Shown in pieces: positions 18,793 through 45,805 of a stretch of 64,000 nt of DNA. The notes below the pieces were generated by a model. The model searched no databases. It was not told where the DNA came from and worked only from the letters and a program-made list of their open reading frames with translations. The DNA comes from Thermococcus sp. (GTDB lineage: Archaea; Methanobacteriota_B; Thermococci; Thermococcales; Thermococcaceae): positions 1 through 64,000 of the forward strand of contig NZ_JACDNS010000006.1 of the NCBI RefSeq assembly GCF_017656495.1, read 5' to 3'. The first letter of the stretch is position 1. The number at the start of each line of letters is the position of its first letter. The translations under genes were made by a program, and so were the position numbers.

Positions 18793-18827
18793 CTTTTCTA
18801 TATTCCCCAACTTTTTTAAAACCTTTG

Positions 18828-18844
18828 GTTTTGAACCTTTAGTG
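18828..18844 (+). promoter_or_regulatory. SurR-like operator in the sulfur-reductase promoter
   Basis: GTTTTGAAC (18828-18836) fits the SurR half-motif GTT-N3-AAC, and the next bases CTTTA-GTG follow the extended GTTn3AACn5GTT consensus with one mismatch. The motif sits inside two nested inverted repeats: AAAACC-TTT-GGTTTT (18819-18833) and GGTT-TTG-AACC (18827-18837). It lies downstream of a TATA-like TTTTTTAAAAC (about 18812-18821) and before ATG 18856, which suits repression. SurR is known to repress the NADPH-dependent sulfur reductase in Pyrococcus until sulfur oxidises it. Confidence 0.7.
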
Positions 18845-32194: not shown

Positions 32195-33307
32195 TTAGAA
32201 CAAGGCCCCATATTTGTAGAAAATGTGACATGTTCCCTCATATGAAACCATACACGGTCCAACTGGGTTCCTCGGGGTGCATGTCTTTCCAAAGTGAGGA
32301 CACTGTGGAGGCAACGCTAATCCACGGAGTATTGCGCCGCAAAGGCAGCCTTTCTCCAAATCGGGCAACTTAGGAACTTTAACGTCATAATAAGTCCTTA
32401 TCTCCAGGTTTTTGTACTCATCTTTAAGCTCAAGCCCACTCTTTGGAATCACTCCTAAAGCTCTCCATTTTGCATCTACAACTTCAAAGAACTTGTTTAT
32501 CAGCTTTTGAGCTTCAACATTTCCTTCATATTTTACAACCCTCGTATATTCGTTCTCTATTTTTATTTCTCCCTTTCTTATCATTCTCAGAAGCATTAGA
32601 ATTCCCATCAACACATCAACAGGCTCAAAACCTGCCACAACTTGGGGAACTCCATATTTCTCTGTTATATATGCCCATCCTTTGACACCTATTATTGTTG
32701 AAACATGACCTGGGTCAATTAGTCCGTCAAAAGCTGTGCCTTGCTTGACCAATGCCTCAACAGCAGGTGGAGTTAAGCGGTGAACAGAATAAATCTTAAA
32801 GTTTTCCAGGTTTTCCTCGACAACTGCATTAAGCATTCCAGCAGCGGGAGCAGTTGTGGTTTCAAATCCTGGGGAGAAATGAACAACCAGCTTGTCTGGA
32901 TTGTTTTTGGCAATCTTATATGCGTCATAAATTGAATAGACTATCCTAACGTCATATCCTTCACTTCTCAAGTCAGCAAAACTTCCTCTTGGCGTGGGAA
33001 TTTTATACATGTCGCCAAATGTCGTTAGAATTATTTTTTCTCCTTCCTCGTAGGCTTTCCTCATTATCTCTTGCATCTTCACGATGTCCTCAACTGGGGT
33101 TATGCAGACGGGACATCCAGGCCCACTGACGATTTTAACGTTTTCTGGCAAGAGTGAGCGGATTCCGCTCCTTGTTACCGTATCCTCGTGGGTTCCGCAG
33201 ACGTGCATAATTTTAACTACCCTTCCTATTTTTTCGGCCTCCTTGTGAATGAGCCTTGTTATCTTTTGAGCAAGCTCTTTGTCTCTAAAAACACTAAAAG
33301 CTTCCAT
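32195..33307 (-). CDS. hypD: Hydrogenase maturation protein HypD
   Basis: About 370 residues. It has the HypD signature cysteines: MHVCGTHEDTV, SGPGCPVCITP and the C-terminal cluster motif with CLCGAILRG, CPHFGKTC and GPCMVSYEGTC. HypD carries a 4Fe-4S cluster and, with HypC, is the scaffold on which Fe(CN)2CO is built for NiFe hydrogenases. Start at ATG 33307 (MEAFSVFRDKEL) with SD GGAGG 7 bases away; ATG 33313 overlaps the hypC stop and is too close to the SD. Downstream of and coupled to hypC. Confidence 0.96.
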   Translation of the reverse strand: MEAFSVFRDKELAQKITRLIHKEAEKIGRVVKIMHVCGTHEDTVTRSGIRSLLPENVKIVSGPGCPVCITPVEDIVKMQEIMRKAYEEGEKIILTTFGDMYKIPTPRGSFADLRSEGYDVRIVYSIYDAYKIAKNNPDKLVVHFSPGFETTTAPAAGMLNAVVEENLENFKIYSVHRLTPPAVEALVKQGTAFDGLIDPGHVSTIIGVKGWAYITEKYGVPQVVAGFEPVDVLMGILMLLRMIRKGEIKIENEYTRVVKYEGNVEAQKLINKFFEVVDAKWRALGVIPKSGLELKDEYKNLEIRTYYDVKVPKLPDLEKGCLCGAILRGLALPPQCPHFGKTCTPRNPVGPCMVSYEGTCHIFYKYGALF

Positions 33308-33309
33308 TT

Positions 33310-33534
33310 TCATTCCTCCATAGCTTTTAGAACTTCTTCCCATGCTTGCAGAATCTCTTTTGCAGTTCTTTCATCTAACTTTTCTATTGCGAAGCCAGTG
33401 TGAACTATTACATAATCGCCAATTTTAACATCAGGAAGCAGATCAAGACGTGCCTCTCTCTTTACGCCACCGAAATCAACAATTGCAACTTTTCCATTGA
33501 TTTCAAGAACCTTAGCTGGGACCGCTAGACACAT
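33310..33534 (-). CDS. hypC: Hydrogenase maturation chaperone HypC
   Basis: 74 residues. It starts MCLAVPAKVLEINGKVAIVD, with the essential N-terminal Cys2, then the small beta-barrel typical of HypC/HupF (GDYVIVHTGFAIEKLDE). The frame runs farther upstream (to 33636), but the Met-Cys start with SD GGGTGAG at 33534 is the family start. It hands the iron precursor to the hydrogenase large subunit together with HypD. A SurR consensus site lies 50-67 bases upstream. Confidence 0.96.
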   Translation of the reverse strand: MCLAVPAKVLEINGKVAIVDFGGVKREARLDLLPDVKIGDYVIVHTGFAIEKLDERTAKEILQAWEEVLKAMEE

Positions 33535-34105: not shown

Positions 34106-34332
34106 TAGTAAGATGAAGCCTTGCTTTTGGCATTTAGATGCTGTGAGTATCTTGGGATTTCTCCAGATTGATCCCAATTTTTAGATTTGTGCAGAAGCTT
34201 AAAGAAGCTTTTTGGATTATTTTAACCTTATGTTATACACCTACCGTTTTGAAAAGCGTTAAAAATTGCCATTTTAATTCCCATTTGATAATACGAAATC
34301 TAAAATCAGTAGCACAAATGGTGGTGAAATTT

Positions 34333-36471
34333 ATGAAGAGTAGCAAAAAATTTTTGGCTTTGCTTGTGCTGTCAGTTTTAGTTTTCAGTGTCTTCAGTGC
34401 TGGGTGTATAAATCAAAACTATCAGACAAAAACAACAAGCAAGGTTACAGCTAAATCCTCCACTACCCAAGGCATTCAGGAACAGAAACCTGAAACAACT
34501 ACAAGCAAAGCTAAATATCCAATAACACTTACGGACTTTGCTGGGAGAACTGTAACAATAGAAAAGCCACCAGAGAGAGTTATTGTTCTAACGAGCTATT
34601 GGGCCGAAATTTTGTGTATCCTTGGGGTTCAAGATAAGATTGTAGGTATTGGAAAGTACATCCCTTATGATCCGTATATTCCAGATGATGTCAAAAAGAA
34701 GCCCGTAGTGGGGAGCAGCTTCAAAGGCTTGAACTGGGAAACTGTTGCAAGCTTGAATCCAGATTTGATAATCGTGGACTGGTATGGAGGAAAGTACAAA
34801 GACGCTGAGACGATTAAGAAAGCTGAAGAGCTCGGGATACCCGTTATAGCTCTGAGTGCAAAGAGTGTTGAGGACAATATCAAGGTCATTGAGCTTCTAG
34901 GAAAAGTTTTCGGAAAAGAGGAGAAAGCTGAGGAACTTGCAAGCTGGATGAAGGAAAAGCTGGATGAAGTTAACAAAATAGCCAGTCAGATTCCAGCAGA
35001 TAAGAAAAAGAACGTTCTTCTTATAAGCGCTCCGAAAGATATAGGTGGTCCAATCACTGTTTATGCCAAAGGAAGTGCTTGGGCGAGCATCGTTGAGCTC
35101 GTCGGCGCTCACAACTTGGCTTTTGACAAAGAGTTTGACACTCAGTGGCCAAAGCTCGACTTGGAGAAGATAATAGCCTACTGGGGAGACAAGGCTGATG
35201 TTATAATAGTTGTTTCATTCAGCCAAGACAAGCTTGAGAAAGCTGTGAATGACATTAAAAATGATCCAAGATGGAGAGAGATTAAAGCTGTGAAAGAAGG
35301 TCATGTTTATAGCATTTTAGCTGGTTCTAAAGCTTTCTTGGACTGGGGACCAAGGATAATAATTGGAGTCTATCAAATGGGTGGACTAATTTATCCTGAG
35401 TATTATCCAGAGTGGAAGCCAATAGCAAAAGAGCTGCTTGAAAACTTCTATGGGGTTAAATACGAAGCTCCAGTAACTGTCATGGATTCAATGGGAAGAA
35501 AAGTAACTTTTGAGAAAGTTCCGGAGAGGGTAATTGTTCTGAGCAGTTACTGGGCTGAAGTTATGTACTGCTTGGGAGTTGCAGACAAGATAGTGGGGAT
35601 TGATAAGTACACACCAAAGAATCAGTTCTTACCGGAAAGCGTTAAAGAAAAGCCTCAAGTCGGAAGCACTTACAAGAAGGGCATAAACTGGGAAACTGTT
35701 GTAAGCTTAAATCCAGACTTGATAATTATGGGCCGCTGGAAGGGAAGTTTCACTTCAGGAGAGCAGGATGTTATTGAGAAATCAAAAGAGCTTGGCTTTA
35801 AAGTTCTGGCATTTGGAATCCCTGACTCCAATGTAACTGGAACAAAAATGCCCTACGAAAACATTAGAATAATCAGGGTTCTTGGAAAAGTTTTTGACAA
35901 AGAGAGAAGGGCTGAAGAACTTGCAAGCTTCTTAGAGAAGTATTACAACGAAGCTTTAGACATAGCAAGCAAGATACCAGCTGATAAGAAGAAAAACGTT
36001 CTAATAGTCTATGGTTCATCAATAGTCGGAAAATATGCTACCGGTGCAATAAGCATATCTTATAAGGGCTCAGCATATGCTGAGACTGCCGAGCTTGTAG
36101 GGGCGCATAACGTTGCATTTGACTACAACTTCTCAACTCAGTATCCAAAGCTTGACCTTGAGAAGCTCATAGCATACTTTGGAGACAAGACAGACGTTTT
36201 AATAGTGGTTGATTGGGACCCAGATAGGCTCAACGAAGCTGTGGAAAAGATAAAGAGCGATCCAGCATGGCAGGAAATCAAAGCTGTCAAAGAAGGGAAC
36301 GTCGTTGGAATATTGGTGAGTTCATGGAGGAAAGATGCTACTGCTCTCTATGGACCAAGATTCATCACCGGAATCTATGCCTTTGGACATGCGATTTACC
36401 CAGAATATTACCCAGACTGGAAGCCGATATACGAAGAGCTCCTCAAGAGGTTCTACGGCATGGAGGGCTGA
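34333..36471 (+). CDS. Lipoprotein with two tandem BtuF/FecB-type substrate-binding domains
   Basis: About 712 residues. Lipobox FSVFSAGC puts the acylated Cys at residue 25, followed by a Ser/Thr/Lys linker. Domain 1 (about 60-365) and domain 2 (about 370-712) are both class III periplasmic-binding-protein folds. They repeat the same blocks: ITLTDFAGRTVTIEKPPERV and VTVMDSMGRKVTFEKVPERV, GLNWETVASLNPDLIIV and GINWETVVSLNPDLIIM, PADKKKNVL in both, ending in YPEYYPEWKPI and YPEYYPDWKPI. Such domains bind cobalamin, haem or ferric siderophores; two in one chain is uncommon. SD GGTGGTGA before ATG 34333; the frame upstream to 34168 has no signal. The 227-base gap before it has weak TATA-like sequences only. 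First gene of the chelatase locus. Confidence 0.92.
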   Translation: MKSSKKFLALLVLSVLVFSVFSAGCINQNYQTKTTSKVTAKSSTTQGIQEQKPETTTSKAKYPITLTDFAGRTVTIEKPPERVIVLTSYWAEILCILGVQDKIVGIGKYIPYDPYIPDDVKKKPVVGSSFKGLNWETVASLNPDLIIVDWYGGKYKDAETIKKAEELGIPVIALSAKSVEDNIKVIELLGKVFGKEEKAEELASWMKEKLDEVNKIASQIPADKKKNVLLISAPKDIGGPITVYAKGSAWASIVELVGAHNLAFDKEFDTQWPKLDLEKIIAYWGDKADVIIVVSFSQDKLEKAVNDIKNDPRWREIKAVKEGHVYSILAGSKAFLDWGPRIIIGVYQMGGLIYPEYYPEWKPIAKELLENFYGVKYEAPVTVMDSMGRKVTFEKVPERVIVLSSYWAEVMYCLGVADKIVGIDKYTPKNQFLPESVKEKPQVGSTYKKGINWETVVSLNPDLIIMGRWKGSFTSGEQDVIEKSKELGFKVLAFGIPDSNVTGTKMPYENIRIIRVLGKVFDKERRAEELASFLEKYYNEALDIASKIPADKKKNVLIVYGSSIVGKYATGAISISYKGSAYAETAELVGAHNVAFDYNFSTQYPKLDLEKLIAYFGDKTDVLIVVDWDPDRLNEAVEKIKSDPAWQEIKAVKEGNVVGILVSSWRKDATALYGPRFITGIYAFGHAIYPEYYPDWKPIYEELLKRFYGMEG

Positions 36472-36473
36472 TT

Positions 36474-37520
36474 ATGAAAAGGTTCCTCTTTCTTTTACTT
36501 TTAGTTTCTCCAATTTTTGCGTTCTTCATAAGCCTATGTATCGGAGCATATCATATGCCACTTTCTGCTATTGTGGATATGGTGATATTAAAGACTCTTC
36601 AGATCATTTCTGGAATTTTGGCTAAAATAACTTTTGGAAGGATTGATTTTGCTATTCAAATTCCCTATCCAAGTGTTTATCAGACTATTATTTTCAAAAT
36701 AAGGCTTCCAAGGGTTATCTTGGCGATGATTGTTGGATCTGCTTTAGCCCTTTCTGGAGCAGTTTTGCAGGCGATATTTAGGAATCCCCTTGTTAACAGC
36801 TATATTTTGGGAATCTCAGCGGGGGCTGCTTTTGGCGCTGCTTTGGCTATAGGACTTTCTCTAAGCTTAGGAATAACACCCTTAGCCTTTGCCTTTGCTA
36901 TACTCGCTGTATTCTTGACAACTTCTCTGGCCAAAATCGGTGGAAGAATAACCCCTGTTTCGCTAGTTCTTGCTGGAGTAATTGTTAATGCGTTCTTTTC
37001 GGCTTTAACCTCCCTGTTAAAGTTTTTGATGGAGCATGAAAAGCTGGCGAGTGTTGTTTACTGGCTCATGGGAAGTTTTGCAGATGCCGACTGGCATTCA
37101 GTCAAGGTGGCTTTTCCTGTAATCTTTCTTGGATGTGTGTTAGTGTATCTAATGCGCTGGCAATTAAACGTCTTGTCTTTTGGAGAAGAGGCCAAAATTG
37201 TTGGAGTCGAAACTGAAAAGTTGAAGTTTGTCTTTATCATAATAACCTCTCTCATAACTGCCGCTTCTGTAGCTTTCTGCGGAATAATTGGATGGGTAGG
37301 CTTAATGATTCCGCACATTGTTAGAATGGCATTTGGGCCAGATCACAAAACACTGATACCCCTAACAATAACCGTAGGAGCTTCATTCATGGTTTTAGCT
37401 GATACATTGGCGAGGTCAATTGCCACTTATGAAATCCCAATTGGTATTTTGACAACAATCCTTGGAATTCCATTCTTTGCGTATCTACTAAGAAAGACGG
37501 GCGGTGGTTGGAATGCTTGA
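36474..37520 (+). CDS. BtuC/FecCD-type ABC transporter permease
   Basis: About 348 residues starting MKRFLFLLLLVSPIFAFF after SD GGAGGG, 2 bases past the preceding stop. About 10 membrane segments. FecCD family motifs: RLPRVILAMIVGSALALSGA, QAIFRNPLVNSYILGISAGA and GWVGLMIPHIVRMAFGPDHK. Imports a metal chelate or corrinoid with the binding protein before it and the ATPase after it. The frame extends upstream to 36267 inside the previous gene, but no SD supports that. Confidence 0.95.
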   Translation: MKRFLFLLLLVSPIFAFFISLCIGAYHMPLSAIVDMVILKTLQIISGILAKITFGRIDFAIQIPYPSVYQTIIFKIRLPRVILAMIVGSALALSGAVLQAIFRNPLVNSYILGISAGAAFGAALAIGLSLSLGITPLAFAFAILAVFLTTSLAKIGGRITPVSLVLAGVIVNAFFSALTSLLKFLMEHEKLASVVYWLMGSFADADWHSVKVAFPVIFLGCVLVYLMRWQLNVLSFGEEAKIVGVETEKLKFVFIIITSLITAASVAFCGIIGWVGLMIPHIVRMAFGPDHKTLIPLTITVGASFMVLADTLARSIATYEIPIGILTTILGIPFFAYLLRKTGGGWNA

Positions 37521-38283
37521 AGTCAAAAGCCTATCATTCAGCTACGGTGATTTCAGCGTTGAGGATGTCTGCTTTGAGGTGAGAGAGGGTGAGATTTTAA
37601 CGCTACTCGGCCCAAACGGCAGTGGGAAAACTACAATTTTGAAAAACATTTATGGATTGTTAAAACCAAAGAAAAAGTGTGTCTTCGTAGATGGTAAGGA
37701 CTTTCACTCACTCTCTTTAAAGGAAAGGGCTAAGTTAGCTGGTTATGTCCCTCAGTCTCATCATCCTCCCTTCCCTTATACTGTTTTGGACGTCGTGGTT
37801 ATGGGCTTAGCCTCTCAGCTTGGAGTTTTTGAGAGCCCAAGGGAAGAGCACTATCAAAAGGCTTTAGAGAAGCTCAAGCTCATAGGAATGGAGCGCTTTA
37901 AGGATAAGCCCTACACACAGCTGAGTGGAGGTCAGTTGCAACTTGTCCTCATAGCAAGGGCTCTCGTGCAAGAACCAAAAGTCCTTCTCTTAGATGAGCC
38001 CACTGCCCATTTGGATTTTAAGAACCAGGTAAAGGTCCTTGGAATAGTGAAGAGGTTGGCAAAAGAGGAAAGCATCTCTGCAGTTATGACGCTCCATGAT
38101 CCGAATTTGGCTTCACTTTATTCAGACAAGATTGCCCTTGTTAAAGAAGGCAGAATTAGAGCCCTTGGAAAGCCGAATGAAATTCTGAAGGAAGAAATTC
38201 TCGAGGAAGTGTACGGCGTCCCGATATGCATTCTTGAATTCAACGGATTTAGACTTATACTTCCAAAAACAGAGGTGGTTTAA
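37513..38283 (+). CDS. BtuD/FepC-type ABC transporter ATPase
   Basis: About 256 residues. Walker A GPNGSGKTT, Q-loop YVPQSHHPPFPYTV, signature LSGGQLQLV, Walker B VLLLDEPTAHLD and the H-loop TLHDPNLA are all complete, so it should hydrolyse ATP. It overlaps the permease by 8 bases (ATG 37513 after SD GGCGGTGG; GTG 37504 is the SD itself). Family: iron-chelate/cobalamin importers. Confidence 0.95.
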   Translation: MLEVKSLSFSYGDFSVEDVCFEVREGEILTLLGPNGSGKTTILKNIYGLLKPKKKCVFVDGKDFHSLSLKERAKLAGYVPQSHHPPFPYTVLDVVVMGLASQLGVFESPREEHYQKALEKLKLIGMERFKDKPYTQLSGGQLQLVLIARALVQEPKVLLLDEPTAHLDFKNQVKVLGIVKRLAKEESISAVMTLHDPNLASLYSDKIALVKEGRIRALGKPNEILKEEILEEVYGVPICILEFNGFRLILPKTEVV

Positions 38284-38285
38284 AA

Positions 38286-39230
38286 GTGGAATTGCTGATA
38301 ATTTCAGCTGGAATTGCATTCAATTTCCTAAAGCGCTCTGTCCCCGGGTTACTTATTGGGATATTCATAGCTGAGCTTCTAATCGAGAAGGGCATAGTGG
38401 AGAAAGTCTCATTCATTGGTAAACCATTCGTTAAGCTCTCAAACCTACCAGCTGAGTGTGCATTAACCTTCGCAACAGCTTTTTTGAACACGAGAGCTGC
38501 TAATGCCATGCTTGTGGATTTTTATAGGGGGGGTAAAATTGGAAAGAGAGAACTCTACATTGCCTCGCTCATGAACGCTTTTCCAGCAATGGTTAGGCAT
38601 TGGAATTCTCTAATTCCTGTTCTCTTGGCTACACTCGGAAGGCTTGGCTTGCTCTACTTTGGAATTTTGGTTTTCATAGGGTTAATTCAGACAACGGTTT
38701 TTGCAGTGGCTGGGAAGATTTTGATTAAAAATCCAAGAAAAATAAGCAATCCCCAAAAGCAGATGACGAAGAAAAAGCCTTTTAAAGAGGTCTTAAGGAA
38801 TGCTTTGGCAAAAACAAAGAAAACTTCAACCCCAATTTTGAAGACCATGATTATAGTGACTTACATAACGGCTCTGCTCATAGCGGTTGGATTTTTCAAT
38901 CATCTAAGTGATCTCGTGAGGAGCTTTGCGGAGTCTTTACCATTTTCACCAGAGGAGCTGAGTGTGGCCTTAAGTGCAATGGCTAGTAGCATAGCAGCCT
39001 ATACTCTCGGCGCAAACCTATTAAAAGCTGGTTTAATAAGTGAAAAAGCCCTAATAAGGGCTCTTCTTCTCGGTTCAATTTTCGCAAATATAACCTTCCT
39101 AAGGGTGTTGATTCCTTATTATGTCGGGCTTTATGGTCCAAAAGATGGAACAAAGCTCATGCTCATCTCAATGACAACGAGGAGCGTGATTATCTTGTGC
39201 ATTATCGCTGTTATGGGGGTGGTGTTGTGA
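38286..39230 (+). CDS. Gate-domain (nucleoside-recognition-like) membrane protein, copy 1
   Basis: 314 residues with GTG start 38286, 2 bases after the ATPase stop. About 8-9 membrane segments in two repeats, each like the Gate/nucleoside recognition fold found in FeoB and spore-maturation proteins: LPAECALTFATAFLNTRAAN in the first half and LSAMASSIAAYTLGANLLKA in the second. Homologous to the protein at 44891-45805: both have an [IV]P-[YV]-L..LG..GLLYF-type stretch and end in P[YF]Y-x-GLY. Unknown transport or scaffolding role in the same system. Confidence 0.82.
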   Translation: MELLIISAGIAFNFLKRSVPGLLIGIFIAELLIEKGIVEKVSFIGKPFVKLSNLPAECALTFATAFLNTRAANAMLVDFYRGGKIGKRELYIASLMNAFPAMVRHWNSLIPVLLATLGRLGLLYFGILVFIGLIQTTVFAVAGKILIKNPRKISNPQKQMTKKKPFKEVLRNALAKTKKTSTPILKTMIIVTYITALLIAVGFFNHLSDLVRSFAESLPFSPEELSVALSAMASSIAAYTLGANLLKAGLISEKALIRALLLGSIFANITFLRVLIPYYVGLYGPKDGTKLMLISMTTRSVIILCIIAVMGVVL

Positions 39231-42200
39231 TATGTTTAATCATAGGTTATGGGGCAAGGGCTTTGCCTTTACTTCAGGGAATCCTTAGAGAAGAAGGAAT
39301 AAAGGGGATTGTGCTCACTGATCAGAACTGTGAGAGGGAGCTGGATAAGGTAGAGACAGCTGAGGTAATCTTCATCTATGCCCATGAGCTTCCCGAAATA
39401 GTGGAGGAGAAAATTAGAGAGAGTAAAGCTAAAGTCATCGCTTGTGCAGGACTGGAAAGCCTAACCAACGTTCCGGAAGAAGTCATAATCAAAGCGAAGA
39501 CATATTATGTCCTTGGAGGCGAGAAGAATCTTAGGAATATGGTCAGATTTTTAGCAAGCTTATCTGGAGAGGCAATTGAATACGAAGAACCAGAAGAAGT
39601 TCCCATGCACGGCATCTATCACCCGAATTTTGGAGTTTTTGAGAGCTTAGAGGACTATTTAATGGTTTACAAGAAAAGACCGCTTGTTGGAGTTCTCTTC
39701 TGGAGAAGTGCCTGGCTTTATAAGGAATTTAAACCAATTGGAGGGCTCATCAAAGCCCTTGAAGAAGAAGGCTTCGGTGTAATTCCAGTGTTTACCTATG
39801 GGAAAGACTCGACGACAGGGCTTGGGAGAGAGAAGAGCGAGGCTGTTGAAGAGTTCTTCATGAAGGATGGAAAGCCGATTATAGATGCCCTCGTGAGCTT
39901 AATTTCCTTCGGCACGGTTGATTTAAAGAATCTGCAAAAGCTCAACGTTCCAGTTTTTGCTCCGATAAGATCTTACTACCAGTCCCTTGAAGAGTGGGAG
40001 AAGAGTGAACAGGGCGTTGACTATATGACTCAGGTTTATGGAGTGATAATCCCAGAAGTTGCAGGAGCAATTGAGCCAATTTTCATAGCTGGGACCAGAA
40101 ACATTGAAGGCTACAAGGTTGGAGAGCCTTACGAAGAGCACATGAAATATTTAGCCAAAAGAGTAAAGAAGTGGATTGAGCTCAGGAAGAAGCCAAAAAG
40201 CGAAGTTAAAATTGCTATAGTCCTAATAAATCCTCCATGTAAAGGGCTTGAGGCGAACATCGGTGTTGGACTTGGTTTGGATGTTCCGGAGAGCATCGTT
40301 AGACTTCTGCACAAGCTTAAGGAGGAAGGCTACTACGTTGGCGAAGATTTGCCAAAGAATGGGGAAGAGCTGATAAAACTGATTTTGAAGAGAAAAGCGA
40401 TAAGCGAGTTCAGATGGACAAGCGTTGAGGAGATAGTCAAAAGCGGAGGAGCAATTGACTTTGTAGACTTGGAGGAGTATCTGGAGTGGTTCAACGAGCT
40501 TCCGGAGGATTTGAGGGAGAGAATCATCAAGGACTGGGGAAAGCCAGAGGATGTCTTAGCCGGGAAGGTGGACAAGGTATTGGTTGGAATGGTCTACGAA
40601 GGGAGATTTGTCGTTCCCGGGATAAGGTTCGGGAACGTCTTCATAACTCCCCAGCCAAAGTTTGGCTGTGCTGGAGCCAGGTGCGATGGAAGGGTGTGCA
40701 GAATTTTGCATGATCCAACAATAGTCCCACCGCATCAGTGGTGGGCAGTGTATAGGTGGATAATGCGCAAATTTAGGGCTGATGTAATGATACACTTCGG
40801 AACCCACGGCTATCTTGAATTTAGGCCCGGAAAAGGTGTTGGGCTTTCTCCTTCATGTGTTCCCGAAGCGAGCTTGGATGATGTTCCCCATTTATACGTT
40901 TATGTTGTCTCTAACCCAATGGAGGGTGTTATTGCTAAGAGGAGAGGCTATGCAACGCTTATAGACCACATTTATCCTCCGATGGGGATGGCAGAGGTTT
41001 TGGATGATTTGGATTCCCTCCTAACCCAGTATGCAAAGGCAAAGAGCTTGGGAGATGAAGCAAGGAGAAAGAAAATTTATGAACAGATTCTGGAGAAAGC
41101 TAAGGAAAACAAGCTGAGAATAGCGAATCCAGAAGATGAAGAGCAGACGATAGAGGAAATTCATCGTTATGTTGAGCTGATGAGGGGTTCTCAAATAAAT
41201 CTCGGCCTTCATATATTTGGACATCCACCAAAAGAACCCGAAAGATTGGCGGAATACATTGCCACGGCAATGGCTTATGATTCTTACGCTTCCCCTTCAA
41301 TTAGGCGCGTTATAGCTGAAGCAATAGGCTTGGACTATGACGAGATAAGAAAGAACCCCTTGGGGACGACAAATGGATTTACGAACAGAGAATTGTTGGA
41401 GATCCTCCACAAGATAGCCATCAAGAGCTTAGAGCGTTTGCTTAAGAGGGAGGGCTTTGATGTCATTGAGGAAGTACTTGAGAAGTTTGGATTCCAAGTT
41501 AAGGAGAAAGAAAAGCTTGAAGAAACGTTTAGAAAAGCCCTTGAAGTTGCAGAGAAAATAATTGAATGTGAAAAAGAATACGACGGCTTCTCGAAGGGAC
41601 TGAGTGGAGAGTATGTGGAACCTGGCCCATCAGGAGCGATAACGAGAGGAAAATTTGAGATTCTACCAACAGGGAGGAATTTTTACGCTGTCGATCCGAG
41701 AACTCTACCAACTAAAGCAGCATGGCAGATAGGAGTTGAAACTGCTGAAAAACTTTTGAAAGCTTACAAAGAAAAGCACGGAAAGTATCCGGAGAGTGTT
41801 GGGCAGGTTCTCTGGAGCATAGACGGTTATAAGGCGGATGGGGAGCAGATAGCTCAAATTCTTTATTTGATTGGAGTTAGGCCGGTTTGGAAAGGAGATG
41901 TAGTTGCTGGGCTTGAAGTCATACCCTTGGAGGAGCTCGGAAGACCAAGGATTGATGTTCTGGTTAGAATAAGTGGAATCGTGAGGGATACCTTGCCAAA
42001 CTACATCTACCTAATTGATGAGGCTATAGAAAAAGTTGTTATGCTGGATGAGCCTTTGGAGATGAACTACATCAAAAAGCACTACATTGAGCACATTAAA
42101 AAGCTCATTGAACTCGGCAAGAGTTTTGAAGAAGCCCAAAGGTTTGCCCGCTTTAGAGTCTTTTCAGCCCCACCTGGTGCCTACGGGGCTGGAGTGAATT

Positions 42201-42985
42201 TAGCAGTCGAATCATCGGGCTGGAGGAATGACGAGGATTTAGCTAAAGTGTGGGTTCAGTGGAGCGGTTATGCTTATGGAAAAGATGCCTTTGGCGTTGA
42301 AGCTCATGAATCATTGGTTTTGAACTTAAGAGAGGTGGATGTAATCAACAGAAACCACATAAGTGATGAGCACGACCCGACGAACTGTTGCTGCTATTTT
42401 GCACATCACGGGGGCTTTAAGACGGCTGTTGATGCCTTAACAGGCAAGAACGTTGAAGTGGTTCAGACAGACACAAGGGACATAAGCGATGCCAAAATAG
42501 TTGACATGAAAGTTGAGCTTGAAAGGGTCGTTAGGACGAAGCTTCTCAATGATAGGTGGATTGAGGAAATGAAGAAGCATGGCTACAGAGGGGCTAGTGA
42601 GTTCTCCAAGAAGATTCTTCACTTATACGGCTGGGAGGCAACGACGAAGCTCGTTGAAGATTGGGTTTTTGATGAGATAGCACAGAAATACGTCCTGGAT
42701 GAAGAAATGAGGAGATGGTTCGAGGAGCACAATCCCTACGCTATTGAGGAAATTGCAAGGCGTTTGATTGAAGCTTATGAGCGCGGCTTATGGAAGACGA
42801 GTGATGAATTAATTGAAAAGCTCATGGAGGTCTATTCCGAGATTGAGGGAATTTTGGAAGAGAGCCTTGGTGAAGGAGAAGTCCAAGGCGGAACGATTGA
42901 AATCTACACGACTGAGGATGATGAGCACTGGAGTGAAAACATGAGGGAGGTGGATAAAATATGGAGCCTCGTGAAAAACGCTTAG
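39227..42985 (+). CDS. cobN: CobN/ChlH-family chelatase large subunit
   Basis: About 1252 residues, normal for CobN. GTG start 39227 overlaps the previous stop (GTGA) with SD GGGGGTGG. CobN blocks: [60 protein letters not shown] and [14 protein letters not shown]. It also has unusual Cys-rich sites: [11 protein letters not shown] (Cys481, Cys486, Cys491) and a CCC triplet (1054-1056) followed by FAHH (His1060, His1061). CobN inserts Co into hydrogenobyrinic diamide with ATPase subunits; relatives insert Mg or Ni or have been implicated in taking Fe from haem. Which reaction occurs here is not known. It overlaps the AAA/VWA partner by 25 bases. Confidence 0.93.
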
Positions 42986-44886
42986 TCTTTCCATTCTCTG
43001 CAATAGTTGGGCAGGAAAAGGCTAAGCTAGCATTGTTAGCTGTAGCTGTTAACCCACTAATTGGTGGTGTTTTGCTTAAAGGAGATAAGGGGACGGGAAA
43101 ATCGACCCTAGTTAGGGCTTTGGCTAACGTTTTGCCTGAAATTGAGGTCGTTGATGGCTGTCCCTTCAACTGCAATCCGAGGAATCCTTTGGAGATGTGC
43201 GACAGCTGTTATGAGAGATATGAAAATGGTGAAGAGTTGCCCATAGCAAAGAGGAAGATGCGCGTTGTGGACTTGCCCTTAAGCGTTACAATAGACAGGC
43301 TTGTTGGAACCGTAGATGTCGAGAGATTTTTAAAAGAAGGGAGAAAGGCATTACAGCCCGGAATTTTGGCAGAAGCAAACAGAAACGTGCTCTACATTGA
43401 TGAAGTGAACCTCTTGGATGACTACATAGCCGATTCACTCTTGGATGCTGCAGCAATGGGATGGAATACAATAGAGAGGGAAGGAATTTCCTTTAAGCAT
43501 CCAGCAAGATTCATCTTAGTTGGAAGCATGAACCCAGAGGAGGGTGAGCTCAGACCTCAAATCCTCGACAGGTTCGGTTTATGCGTTGAAGTTTCAGCAC
43601 CTATGAACCCGGAGGAGAGGATAGAGATAGTCAAGCGCGTTGAGGAGTTCCATGAAGACCCCATAAACTTCTACAAAAAGTATGAGAGCGAAGAGAAGAA
43701 GCTCACGGAGAGGATCGTTAAGGCGAGGGAGGTTCTGCCGAAGGTCGAGATAAGCGACGATTTGCTGAAGCTTTTGGCTGAAACGGTCGTTAACCTGGGA
43801 ATCAAAACCAACAGGGCCGAGATAGCGACGATAAAGACGGCCAAAGCAATAGCCGCCCTAAACGGAAGGAGAAGGGTCTCACTGGAAGACTTAGAAAAAG
43901 CCATGGAATTGGCTCTACCGCACCGCCTGAGGGACAGGCCGTTCCAAAAGCCGCCGCAAATGAGGCCTCCAAAGCCTAAAGATGATAAGGAGCACAATCA
44001 TGACCACAAACACGACCACAAGCATGAGCACAAGAATGAAGAAAAAAATGAAAGGAGAAACCAGGAGTCTCGAAGTCAGGGGATTGGAAATTTAGAGCAA
44101 AATTTTCGCTCAAGCGAAGCTAAAATCCCAAGGATAGAGAGCAGAAACTTTGATGGAAGCGAATTCACGGGATATCGCTCCTCAAGAGACGTCAGCGTTA
44201 CAGTAATAAACTTCCCCAAAGGCGTTCCAGTTTCGTATCTCCCACCAACCAACGGCAAAATTAAAGACGTTGATTTTTACAACTCTCTGGTTTGGGCAGT
44301 TTTGAATGGAAAAAAGCCTCCAATAAAGCTTGATTTAAAGGACGTTCGTGTTAGGGTTAGGAAGGCAAAAGCCCCCACGCTCTGGGTTTTGCTCTTGGAT
44401 TCAAGCGGAAGTATGGCTGTGCAGAAGAGAATCAGCATTGCGAAGGGAATAGCGGAGAAATTAGTTGAGAACGGCTACATTAAAAAGTCAAAGGTGGCTT
44501 TGATAGTCGCAAAAGGTAATCGAGCGGAAATATTCGTTCCACCTACAAAAAACTACCTTAAAGTCGTAGAAATGATTGAAAACGTCCCCACTGGAGGCAG
44601 AACACCTTTAAGCTCTGCCCTCTATAATCTTCTTCTGCTTGCTGAACGTGAGAGGAGAAAAGACAAGTCCCTGAAAGTTAGGGCATTTTTGATAACCGAC
44701 GGAAAGGCCAACGTCTCGCTTTTTGGAAAGCGAATTAAGGATGAAATCATTGAGCTGGCAAAAGCTCTGAGGAAAAAGGGAATAGAACTTAACATTTATG
44801 ACACGAGAGGAAGAGGGATAAATCCAGGAATTTCATATGTCCCGTTGTTGAAGGAAGTTGCAAACGCCAAAGTTTACAGGGCGTGA
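42961..44886 (+). CDS. ChlI-ChlD fusion chelatase ATPase with His-rich linker
   Basis: 641 residues. AAA+ ChlI part about 1-340: Walker [10 protein letters not shown], the ChlI Cys-rich insert ([17 protein letters not shown]), Walker [17 protein letters not shown], sensor [20 protein letters not shown] linker of about 70 residues contains [19 protein letters not shown], able to bind metal. The C-terminal VWA domain (about 470-641) has MIDAS DSSGSM. ChlI/ChlD (BchI/BchD) power Mg- or Co-chelatases in complex with CobN/ChlH, so this is the motor of the adjacent CobN. SD GGAGGTGG, ATG 42961. Residues about 240-340 are encoded by locally GC-richer DNA. Confidence 0.94.
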
Positions 44887-44890
44887 GAGC

Positions 44891-45805
44891 TTGGACTTTT
44901 TAAAGCTCTACATAATTTCGATGGCCTCAATTACTTTTGGGTATATTTTAGCCGAGACTCTAAGTGAGACTAACCTGATAAAGCTCATTGGGGCTAAAAC
45001 TTCCAAGATAACAAAACTTGGCATTCACCCGGCTCTGACGCCAGTTCCGGCGCTGTATTTGGTCAGCCCGAGGGTTGCCCATGCAAATGCCTCTGCCTTG
45101 TTGAAAGAAGGGTTAATTGAGCCAATTGACCTTTACATAGTCATCCTTGCTTCAAATCTCTCGTTGAGAGTTATGTACATTTATCGCTATTATTTACCCG
45201 TGCTTCTACCTCTCTTGGGAATTGTAACGCTTTATTTCATTGGTCTGAGGATTCTCTTTGATTTTCTTCTTGTTTTTGTGGTTTTGATGATTGGACGTAG
45301 GAGATACAAGGGTGTAAAACTCAACGGCGAGAATAACAAAATTAAGCTTAACTTTTCAAGGAAAGCTTTCAAAAAGGGGTTAATCAAGGGATTAAAAGCC
45401 TCACTAAACTTTGCTTTAAGGTTTACGCCTCTTTTCCTCTTGGTTGTCTTTATGCTTAAGTCGGGTATCTCATATAAGATGACCCTTGCTCTATCTCCCA
45501 TACTTGGAAAGCTTGGCTTAGACTCTTTGGGTATTACTTACATTACAACCGCCATCTTCAGCCCGAGGGCTGCTTATGGAATAGCTAAGGTGATGCTGGG
45601 TTACAATTACCCAATGCAAAAAGTCTTAGGTTGCATGTTCCTTGGGAATGGGCTGTTTGTTCTTCTCAATGAAAGCTGGGTTAGGATTCTGCCGTTTTAT
45701 TCTGGGCTCTATCCGAGGGAAGTGACTTTAAGGCTCCTATTCCTTCAAGCTGGATTATCTTCTCTTTACAACATCTTTTTGGCAATTGTTCTGCTTAAAC
45801 TCTAA
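44891..45805 (+). CDS. Gate-domain membrane protein, copy 2
   Basis: About 305 residues, paralogous to the protein at 38286-39230, with about 8 membrane segments in two Gate-like repeats ([20 protein letters not shown] and [20 protein letters not shown]). The start is uncertain: TTG 44858 overlaps the previous gene, TTG 44891 fits GGGCGTGAG as a weak SD, and ATG 44921 would trim the first helix. Last gene of the chelatase locus; it overlaps the convergent nadE by 4 bases. Probably the second half of a membrane complex with copy 1. Confidence 0.8.

Follow-up and report, generated by a model that had tools for sequence, protein, structure and literature searches.

The 64,000-nucleotide (nt) stretch of Thermococcus sp. 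DNA analysed here (contig NZ_JACDNS010000006.1, positions 1 to 64,000; hereafter the window) carries at positions 34333-45805 seven contiguous open reading frames, all on the forward strand. These encode a substrate-binding protein (SBP), a permease, an ATPase, a first Gate protein (Gate1), a CobN-like chelatase subunit, a ChlI-ChlD fusion (ChlID) and a second Gate protein (Gate2):

34333..36471, + strand: two-domain substrate-binding lipoprotein (PF01497, 219.6 bits; two Peripla_BP_2 stretches; lipobox FSAGC)
36474..37520, + strand: FecCD/BtuC-type permease (PF01032, 291 bits)
37504..38283, + strand: ATP-binding cassette (ABC) transporter ATPase (PF00005, 109.6 bits)
38286..39230, + strand: Gate1 membrane protein (PF07670, 27.0 bits, cut-off 29.6, E 6e-6)
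39197 (GTG) or ~39227..42985, + strand: CobN-like class I chelatase H subunit, cysteine-type (PF02514, 1224 bits)
42961..44886, + strand: ChlI-ChlD fusion motor subunit, AAA+ plus von Willebrand A domain (TIGR02442, 657 bits, cut-off 779; AAA_lid_2, VWA_2)
44858..45805, + strand: Gate2 membrane protein, Gate1 paralogue (hhalign to Gate1, 99.6%)

In agreement with a preliminary description of the locus, the genes are co-directional and overlap or lie 2 nt apart, with junctions of +2, -17, +2, -34, -25 and -29 nt in order. Wherever these genes occur in 17 other Thermococcaceae genomes, the spacings hardly differ, and the order SBP-permease-ATPase-CobN-ChlID is shared with other CobN-bearing Thermococcaceae. 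With a Peripla_BP_2 lipoprotein, a FecCD permease and an ATPase encoded in one operon, the first three genes specify an ABC importer of the FecCD/BtuC class. The locus is thus a real and conserved import-chelatase module. The two domains described for the binding lipoprotein are indeed present here, but they are not universal, as the SBP of relatives from another genus has one domain only, and these relatives lack a Gate gene.

Of 94 Thermococcaceae genomes, 27 contain CobN (PF02514), and ABC genes lie directly upstream of the cysteine-type CobN in 20/20 well-covered loci of this family, although in one of these (L050) only the ATPase is visible before the contig ends. In the genome G070, the ABC genes are lost and CobN is cut to its C-terminal 631 residues, which reads as a co-decay of transporter and CobN. 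One wider phylum search returned matches from Thermococcaceae only. The linkage of transporter and chelatase extends well beyond the Thermococcales. Cysteine-type CobN and ABC genes are also linked in Archaeoglobi (L066, L067, L109), Thermoprotei (L064), Methanomethylicota (L065), ANME/Methanosarcinales (L058, L059, L125), Methanothrix-type methanogens (L060, L069) and one bacterium, a member of the Nitrospiraceae (L104). The gene order of these clusters varies outside the Thermococcaceae, and because the association recurs in different orders, it points to function rather than to chance or neighbourhood inertia.

HemB is needed for the synthesis of every tetrapyrrole. In family searches, by which the presence or absence of genes across genomes was judged, HemB was missing from the window's own genome (99.95% complete) and from 47 relatives (0/48), while 11 of 14 control genomes scored. 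Any tetrapyrrole ring must therefore be imported, as had been proposed for this locus, and the corrin-ring synthesis that would mark CobN as a cobaltochelatase is likewise absent from these 48 genomes. Two observations named beforehand as speaking against such a reading, namely a complete corrin or haem pathway elsewhere in the genome that uses this chelatase, or separate transcription and regulation of transporter and chelatase genes, did not appear.

The genome does contain a B12 salvage cluster, located on another contig and coding for a BtuF-like SBP, CobQ, CobY-like, CobS, CobZ, CbiB and CobD-like proteins. The BtuF-like SBP adjoins CobQ, and a second FecCD/ATPase pair is encoded elsewhere in the genome. 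Thus, while the importer of the locus belongs to the same transporter class as the B12 importer BtuFCD, the genome has separate genes of this kind, and a sequence comparison showed that the residues of the SBP are clearly unlike those of the BtuF-like protein. Among the 48 genomes, CobS is present in 17/18 with and 26/30 without CobN, and one CobN-bearing genome (G076) lacks CobS. The separate cluster and this distribution indicate that B12 salvage can do without the locus and that the locus is not confined to genomes with such salvage, and we therefore reject B12 salvage as its main role. For the separate salvage and BtuCD-like genes, a corrinoid also becomes less likely among the candidate rings. 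One might still envisage that metal-free or wrongly metallated corrinoids are imported, receive cobalt from CobN-ChlID and feed the salvage pathway. The closest structural match to the chelatase is the Mycobacterium tuberculosis CobN, insertion enzymes use ChlID as their ATP motor and CobS-type salvage is available in the genome. Nevertheless, we consider this unlikely, given the separate salvage genes, the retention of CobS in most CobN-less genomes as well as its loss from G076, and the position of the locus outside a cob cluster, unlike the cysteine-free CobN of Halorussus and Spirosoma.

The CobN protein of the window comprises 1262 amino acids and, by inspection, has no signal peptide and no terminal membrane helix, for which reason we read it as cytosolic. 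In an alignment that also included sequences of CobN, HmuS-like proteins and the second archaeal CobN, six cysteines (Cys348, 491, 496, 501, 1064 and 1065) set its clade apart, occurring in 20/20 of the members against 0/20 of the other sequences; they are also absent from the B12-cluster CobN proteins of Halorussus and Spirosoma. The clade has a single origin (support 100/99), and the two main cysteine motifs were never found apart in 38 sequences. The codons for these residues and for the putative catalytic histidine are located as follows:

40238..40240, + strand: Cys348 (PPCKG), in 20/20 cysteine-type and 0/20 other sequences
40667..40699, + strand: Cys491-Cys496-Cys501 (CAGxxCDGxVC), inserted in the loop matching Loop I, 20/20 versus 0/20
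40805..40807, + strand: His537 of HFGTHG, counterpart of the catalytic HmuS His-538 (motif match, PMC12583661)
42386..42394, + strand: Cys1064-Cys1065-Cys1066, aligned with HmuS LDH(1209); C1064 and C1065 in 20/20, C1066 in 16/20, others 0/20

In the structure of HmuS, a protein of the Bacteroidota hmu operon (PDB 9d26), His-538 and His-1209 lie opposite each other across the ring site, which is gated by Loop I according to structure and mutagenesis (PMC12583661). We place the cysteine insert in the Loop I region because of the alignment and because a histidine precedes His537 by 32 residues, as His-506 precedes His-538 in HmuS. The AlphaFold model of CobN (pLDDT 84.5) is good as a whole and resembles CobN 7c6o, ChlH and HmuS 9d26 in Foldseek searches. 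Profile models barely separate CobN from BchH here, as the CobN model TIGR02257 gives 834 bits (cut-off 822) and the BchH model 826 (cut-off 829). With HmuS, the protein shares the class I chelatase fold (TMq 0.79), the HFGTHG motif with the catalytic histidine (residues 533-538; HFG(T/A)HG is superfamily-wide), the linkage to uptake genes and a host that takes up the ring. However, the LSLDHxxEFMGG motif with the axial His-1209 is replaced by Cys-Cys-Cys, whereas the HmuS-like control L130 has LSLDHVYEFMGG; membrane anchors and the methionine-rich insertion were not seen on inspection of the 1262-residue sequence; and the locus has an ABC importer, a ChlID ATPase and the six clade-specific cysteines instead. 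HmuS, which had been brought forward as a precedent, is sound as such, but given the replaced motif, the cytosolic appearance and the AAA+ partner, this CobN is not itself an HmuS. The best fold match is CobN of the aerobic cobaltochelatase CobNST (PDB 7c6o, E 8e-70, TMq 0.78; ~28-32% identity), which also has an AAA+/von Willebrand A partner. The protein studied here differs in being encoded outside any cob cluster in an organism without corrin synthesis, and in carrying the cysteine loop and Cys-Cys in place of DSDD-type residues. Magnesium chelatase (ChlH/BchH, ChlI and ChlD) is similar in fold and in its ChlI-ChlD partner architecture, but here ChlI and ChlD are fused, the cysteine cluster is present and the genome lacks tetrapyrrole synthesis. 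We suggest that soft-metal capture, or an iron-sulfur centre, is built around the ring site. What appears to be new is a class I chelatase variant with a cysteine active site and, as described next, a SurR-type promoter.

Three elements precede the SBP gene:

34224..34248, + strand: extended SurR-type operator AACn5GTTn3AACn5GTT, 1 mismatch
34251..34266, + strand: BRE/TATA-like element gaaaagcgttaaaaat, assigned by inspection; the aligned promoters share an A+T-rich box immediately following the SurR palindrome
34292..34311, + strand: second palindrome TACNAAATNNNAAATYAGTA, downstream of the promoter and ahead of the SBP start codon, conserved with <=2 mismatches in 17/17 promoters

The published SurR site is GTTn3AACn5GTT (PMC12162507, PMC8595942), and SurR, the switch that governs hydrogen and sulfur metabolism, is encoded in the genome (NF047699, 401 bits). 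In 17/17 promoters, the SBP gene is preceded by the extended palindrome with <=1 mismatch, compared with a mean of 0.05 and a maximum of 2 in shuffled sequences, and the exact long site is present in 10/17; as the 17 promoters are related, these counts represent a phylogenetic footprint and not 17 independent events. In the same genome, the palindrome is also found at surR/pdo, three MnhE-led operons, CoA-disulfide reductase and shyB. SurR probably controls the operon together with hydrogenase and sulfur-reduction genes. For the SurR-activated mbh operon, the site is reported to lie directly before the BRE/TATA box (PMC12401011), and by analogy with this arrangement activation without elemental sulfur (S0) is predicted here, although the effect could be repression. 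The palindrome TACNAAATNNNAAATYAGTA might be the operator of another regulator; the genome scan found no other perfect copy, and with 4 sites versus 4 in the control we dropped the idea of a regulon-wide operator. Within the window, positions 18820-18844 hold another extended SurR palindrome just ahead of a gene for a CoA-disulfide reductase (NSR-type), a textbook SurR target. The chelatase is not mentioned in papers on SurR, T. onnurineus and T. gammatolerans that were consulted.

Based on these observations, we propose that the operon encodes an ATP-driven tetrapyrrole-salvage chelatase with its own importer, probably acting as a demetallase for the metal of haem (or F430), a reading to which we assign a probability of about one half. 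The lipoprotein and the FecCD-type ABC transporter would carry an intact metallated tetrapyrrole into the cytosol, where the ring would be held by the CobN-like subunit, within the central cleft of its class I chelatase fold, while metal exchange would be powered by the ChlI-ChlD ATPase. In this anaerobic subfamily, His537 would face the cysteine cluster formed by Cys348, the gating-loop insert Cys491/496/501 and Cys1064/1065, which may take the place of the second HmuS histidine or of the acidic residues of classical CobN. Most likely, this cluster would capture a soft metal, or else hold an iron-sulfur centre that reduces the metal. Overall, the metal is probably removed to serve nutrition, with haem iron as the first candidate and F430 nickel as the next; for haem or another metalloporphyrinoid as the metal source, we see about an even chance. 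The Gate pair might be a secondary transporter in an accessory role, which perhaps moves the released ring, and SurR would regulate the operon along with the hydrogenase and sulfur-reduction genes.

Demetallation is favoured by the HmuS precedent, the lack of a biosynthetic pathway to feed and the cysteine cluster. Demetallation, and haem as the ring, are also favoured by the Nitrospiraceae cluster, in which a TonB receptor gene precedes SBP and has the haem receptor TIGR01785 as its best model (231 bits, cut-off 317). In addition, two CobN-like proteins of M. barkeri change with the Fe/S source in the proteome (PMC10846266), a response that likewise favours demetallation. Several points weigh against our proposal. 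For the SBP, the permease and the ATPase, models for B12, haem and siderophores alike give matches, all under the cut-off, and the cysteine loop is of low confidence in the AlphaFold model. HmuS needs no ChlI/ChlD partner for demetallation, whereas metal insertion is what the known ATP-driven chelatases (CobNST, ChlHID) perform; the presence of ChlID therefore speaks for insertion as strongly as for removal. The window's own SurR-type site has one mismatch, and the motif count across the genome equals that of a reversed-pattern control (15 versus 15), wherefore the placement and not the number of the sites is the evidence. Finally, FeoB is present in 48/48 genomes and iron is not obviously scarce, which suggests that the locus is accessory and not a basic iron system. 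For the boldest version of the proposal, a new ATP-driven, cysteine- or iron-sulfur-assisted demetallase that is coupled to an importer, is wired to SurR and lets anaerobic archaea obtain iron or nickel from haem or F430 in their surroundings, we remain doubtful.

Alternatively, the imported ring could be F430, or a different nickel tetrapyrrole, originating from methanogens nearby, and its nickel could be stripped for [NiFe]-hydrogenases, with SurR matching metal supply to hydrogenase synthesis. The operon shares the SurR motif with hydrogenase-linked operons, the chelatase family also occurs in methanogens and ANME archaea and hypD lies upstream in the window's genus, but this adjacency was seen in that genus only, nothing ties the locus directly to nickel genes, SurR could act as a repressor and the Nitrospiraceae member has a haem-receptor-like protein as its partner, making this scenario less probable still than cobalt insertion into corrinoids. 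It is very improbable that the transporter carries a non-tetrapyrrole chelate (siderophore or metallophore) while CobN-ChlID acts on a different substrate and the genes are merely co-regulated, since, although the SBP and permease models do not tell ligands apart, the linkage recurs across phyla in different gene orders, transporter loss accompanies CobN truncation and internal tetrapyrrole synthesis is absent.

Returning to the proposed salvage chelatase, the locus offers, for one large group of organisms unable to make the ring, a concrete case in which a chelatase is coupled to import and has a distinctive cysteine active site. As some Thermococcus species are genetically tractable, ligand, metal and direction are directly testable, and the SurR link gives a prediction of the suitable conditions.

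The Gate proteins had been suggested to carry the released metal or to couple the chelatase to the membrane; as a required function this does not hold, since the chelatase core is complete in many genomes that lack Gate genes altogether. Genes of this family are found in 10/18 genomes with and 0/30 without CobN, always at the CobN locus, and being confined to CobN-bearing genomes but often missing, Gate is best seen as dedicated yet dispensable or accessory. Gate2 alone has no Pfam match, while 3/5 family members match PF07670. The Gate1 model (pLDDT 77.7) has the nucleoside transporter CNTnw as its nearest PDB fold, with a TMq of 0.58 and an E of 0.029 that are suggestive only. The pair thus resembles PF07670 Gate-domain proteins and concentrative nucleoside transporters (CNT) in a weak domain match and a CNT-like model fold, but differs in low sequence identity and in occurring only at CobN loci in these genomes. 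A FeoB-like function was dropped, as no FeoB was among the fold matches listed, the best being CNT. That the Gate pair exports the stripped ring is a guess.

In five loci, a second archaeal paralogue, CobN-B, adjoins the cysteine-type CobN (L038:2334-5909, L066:13754-17329, L109:12704-16300, L060:15450-19307 and L069:9461-13330). It is ~35% identical and has an HmuS-like DHYYE motif and no cysteine cluster; perhaps one protein of the pair removes and the other inserts a metal. Clusters of the order SBP-permease-ATPase-ChlI-ChlD-CobN are found in Paenibacillus and Vulcanisaeta (L111:2105-12961, L112:3011-12817, L118:4176-13623); these carry CobW-like or Gate genes, and their CobN lacks the cysteine motifs. 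A gene for an S-adenosylmethionine-dependent methyltransferase lies between ATPase and Gate1 in one genome (L034:5905-6795), and a methyltransferase gene follows ChlD in L104. Directly upstream of SBP or CobN, eight loci (L039, L042, L043, L048, L049, L051, L053, L054) have nrdD-nrdG, which were suspected to encode an iron transporter until inspection of the sequences pointed to an anaerobic ribonucleotide reductase and its activase; the NrdD frame of L048 appears to contain inteins, and these genes do not adjoin the window's own locus. The latter is flanked downstream by a convergent NadE gene and, a short distance upstream, by a divergent gene for the hydrogenase maturation protein HypD (window 32195-33343, - strand), whose adjacency was seen in the window's genus only.

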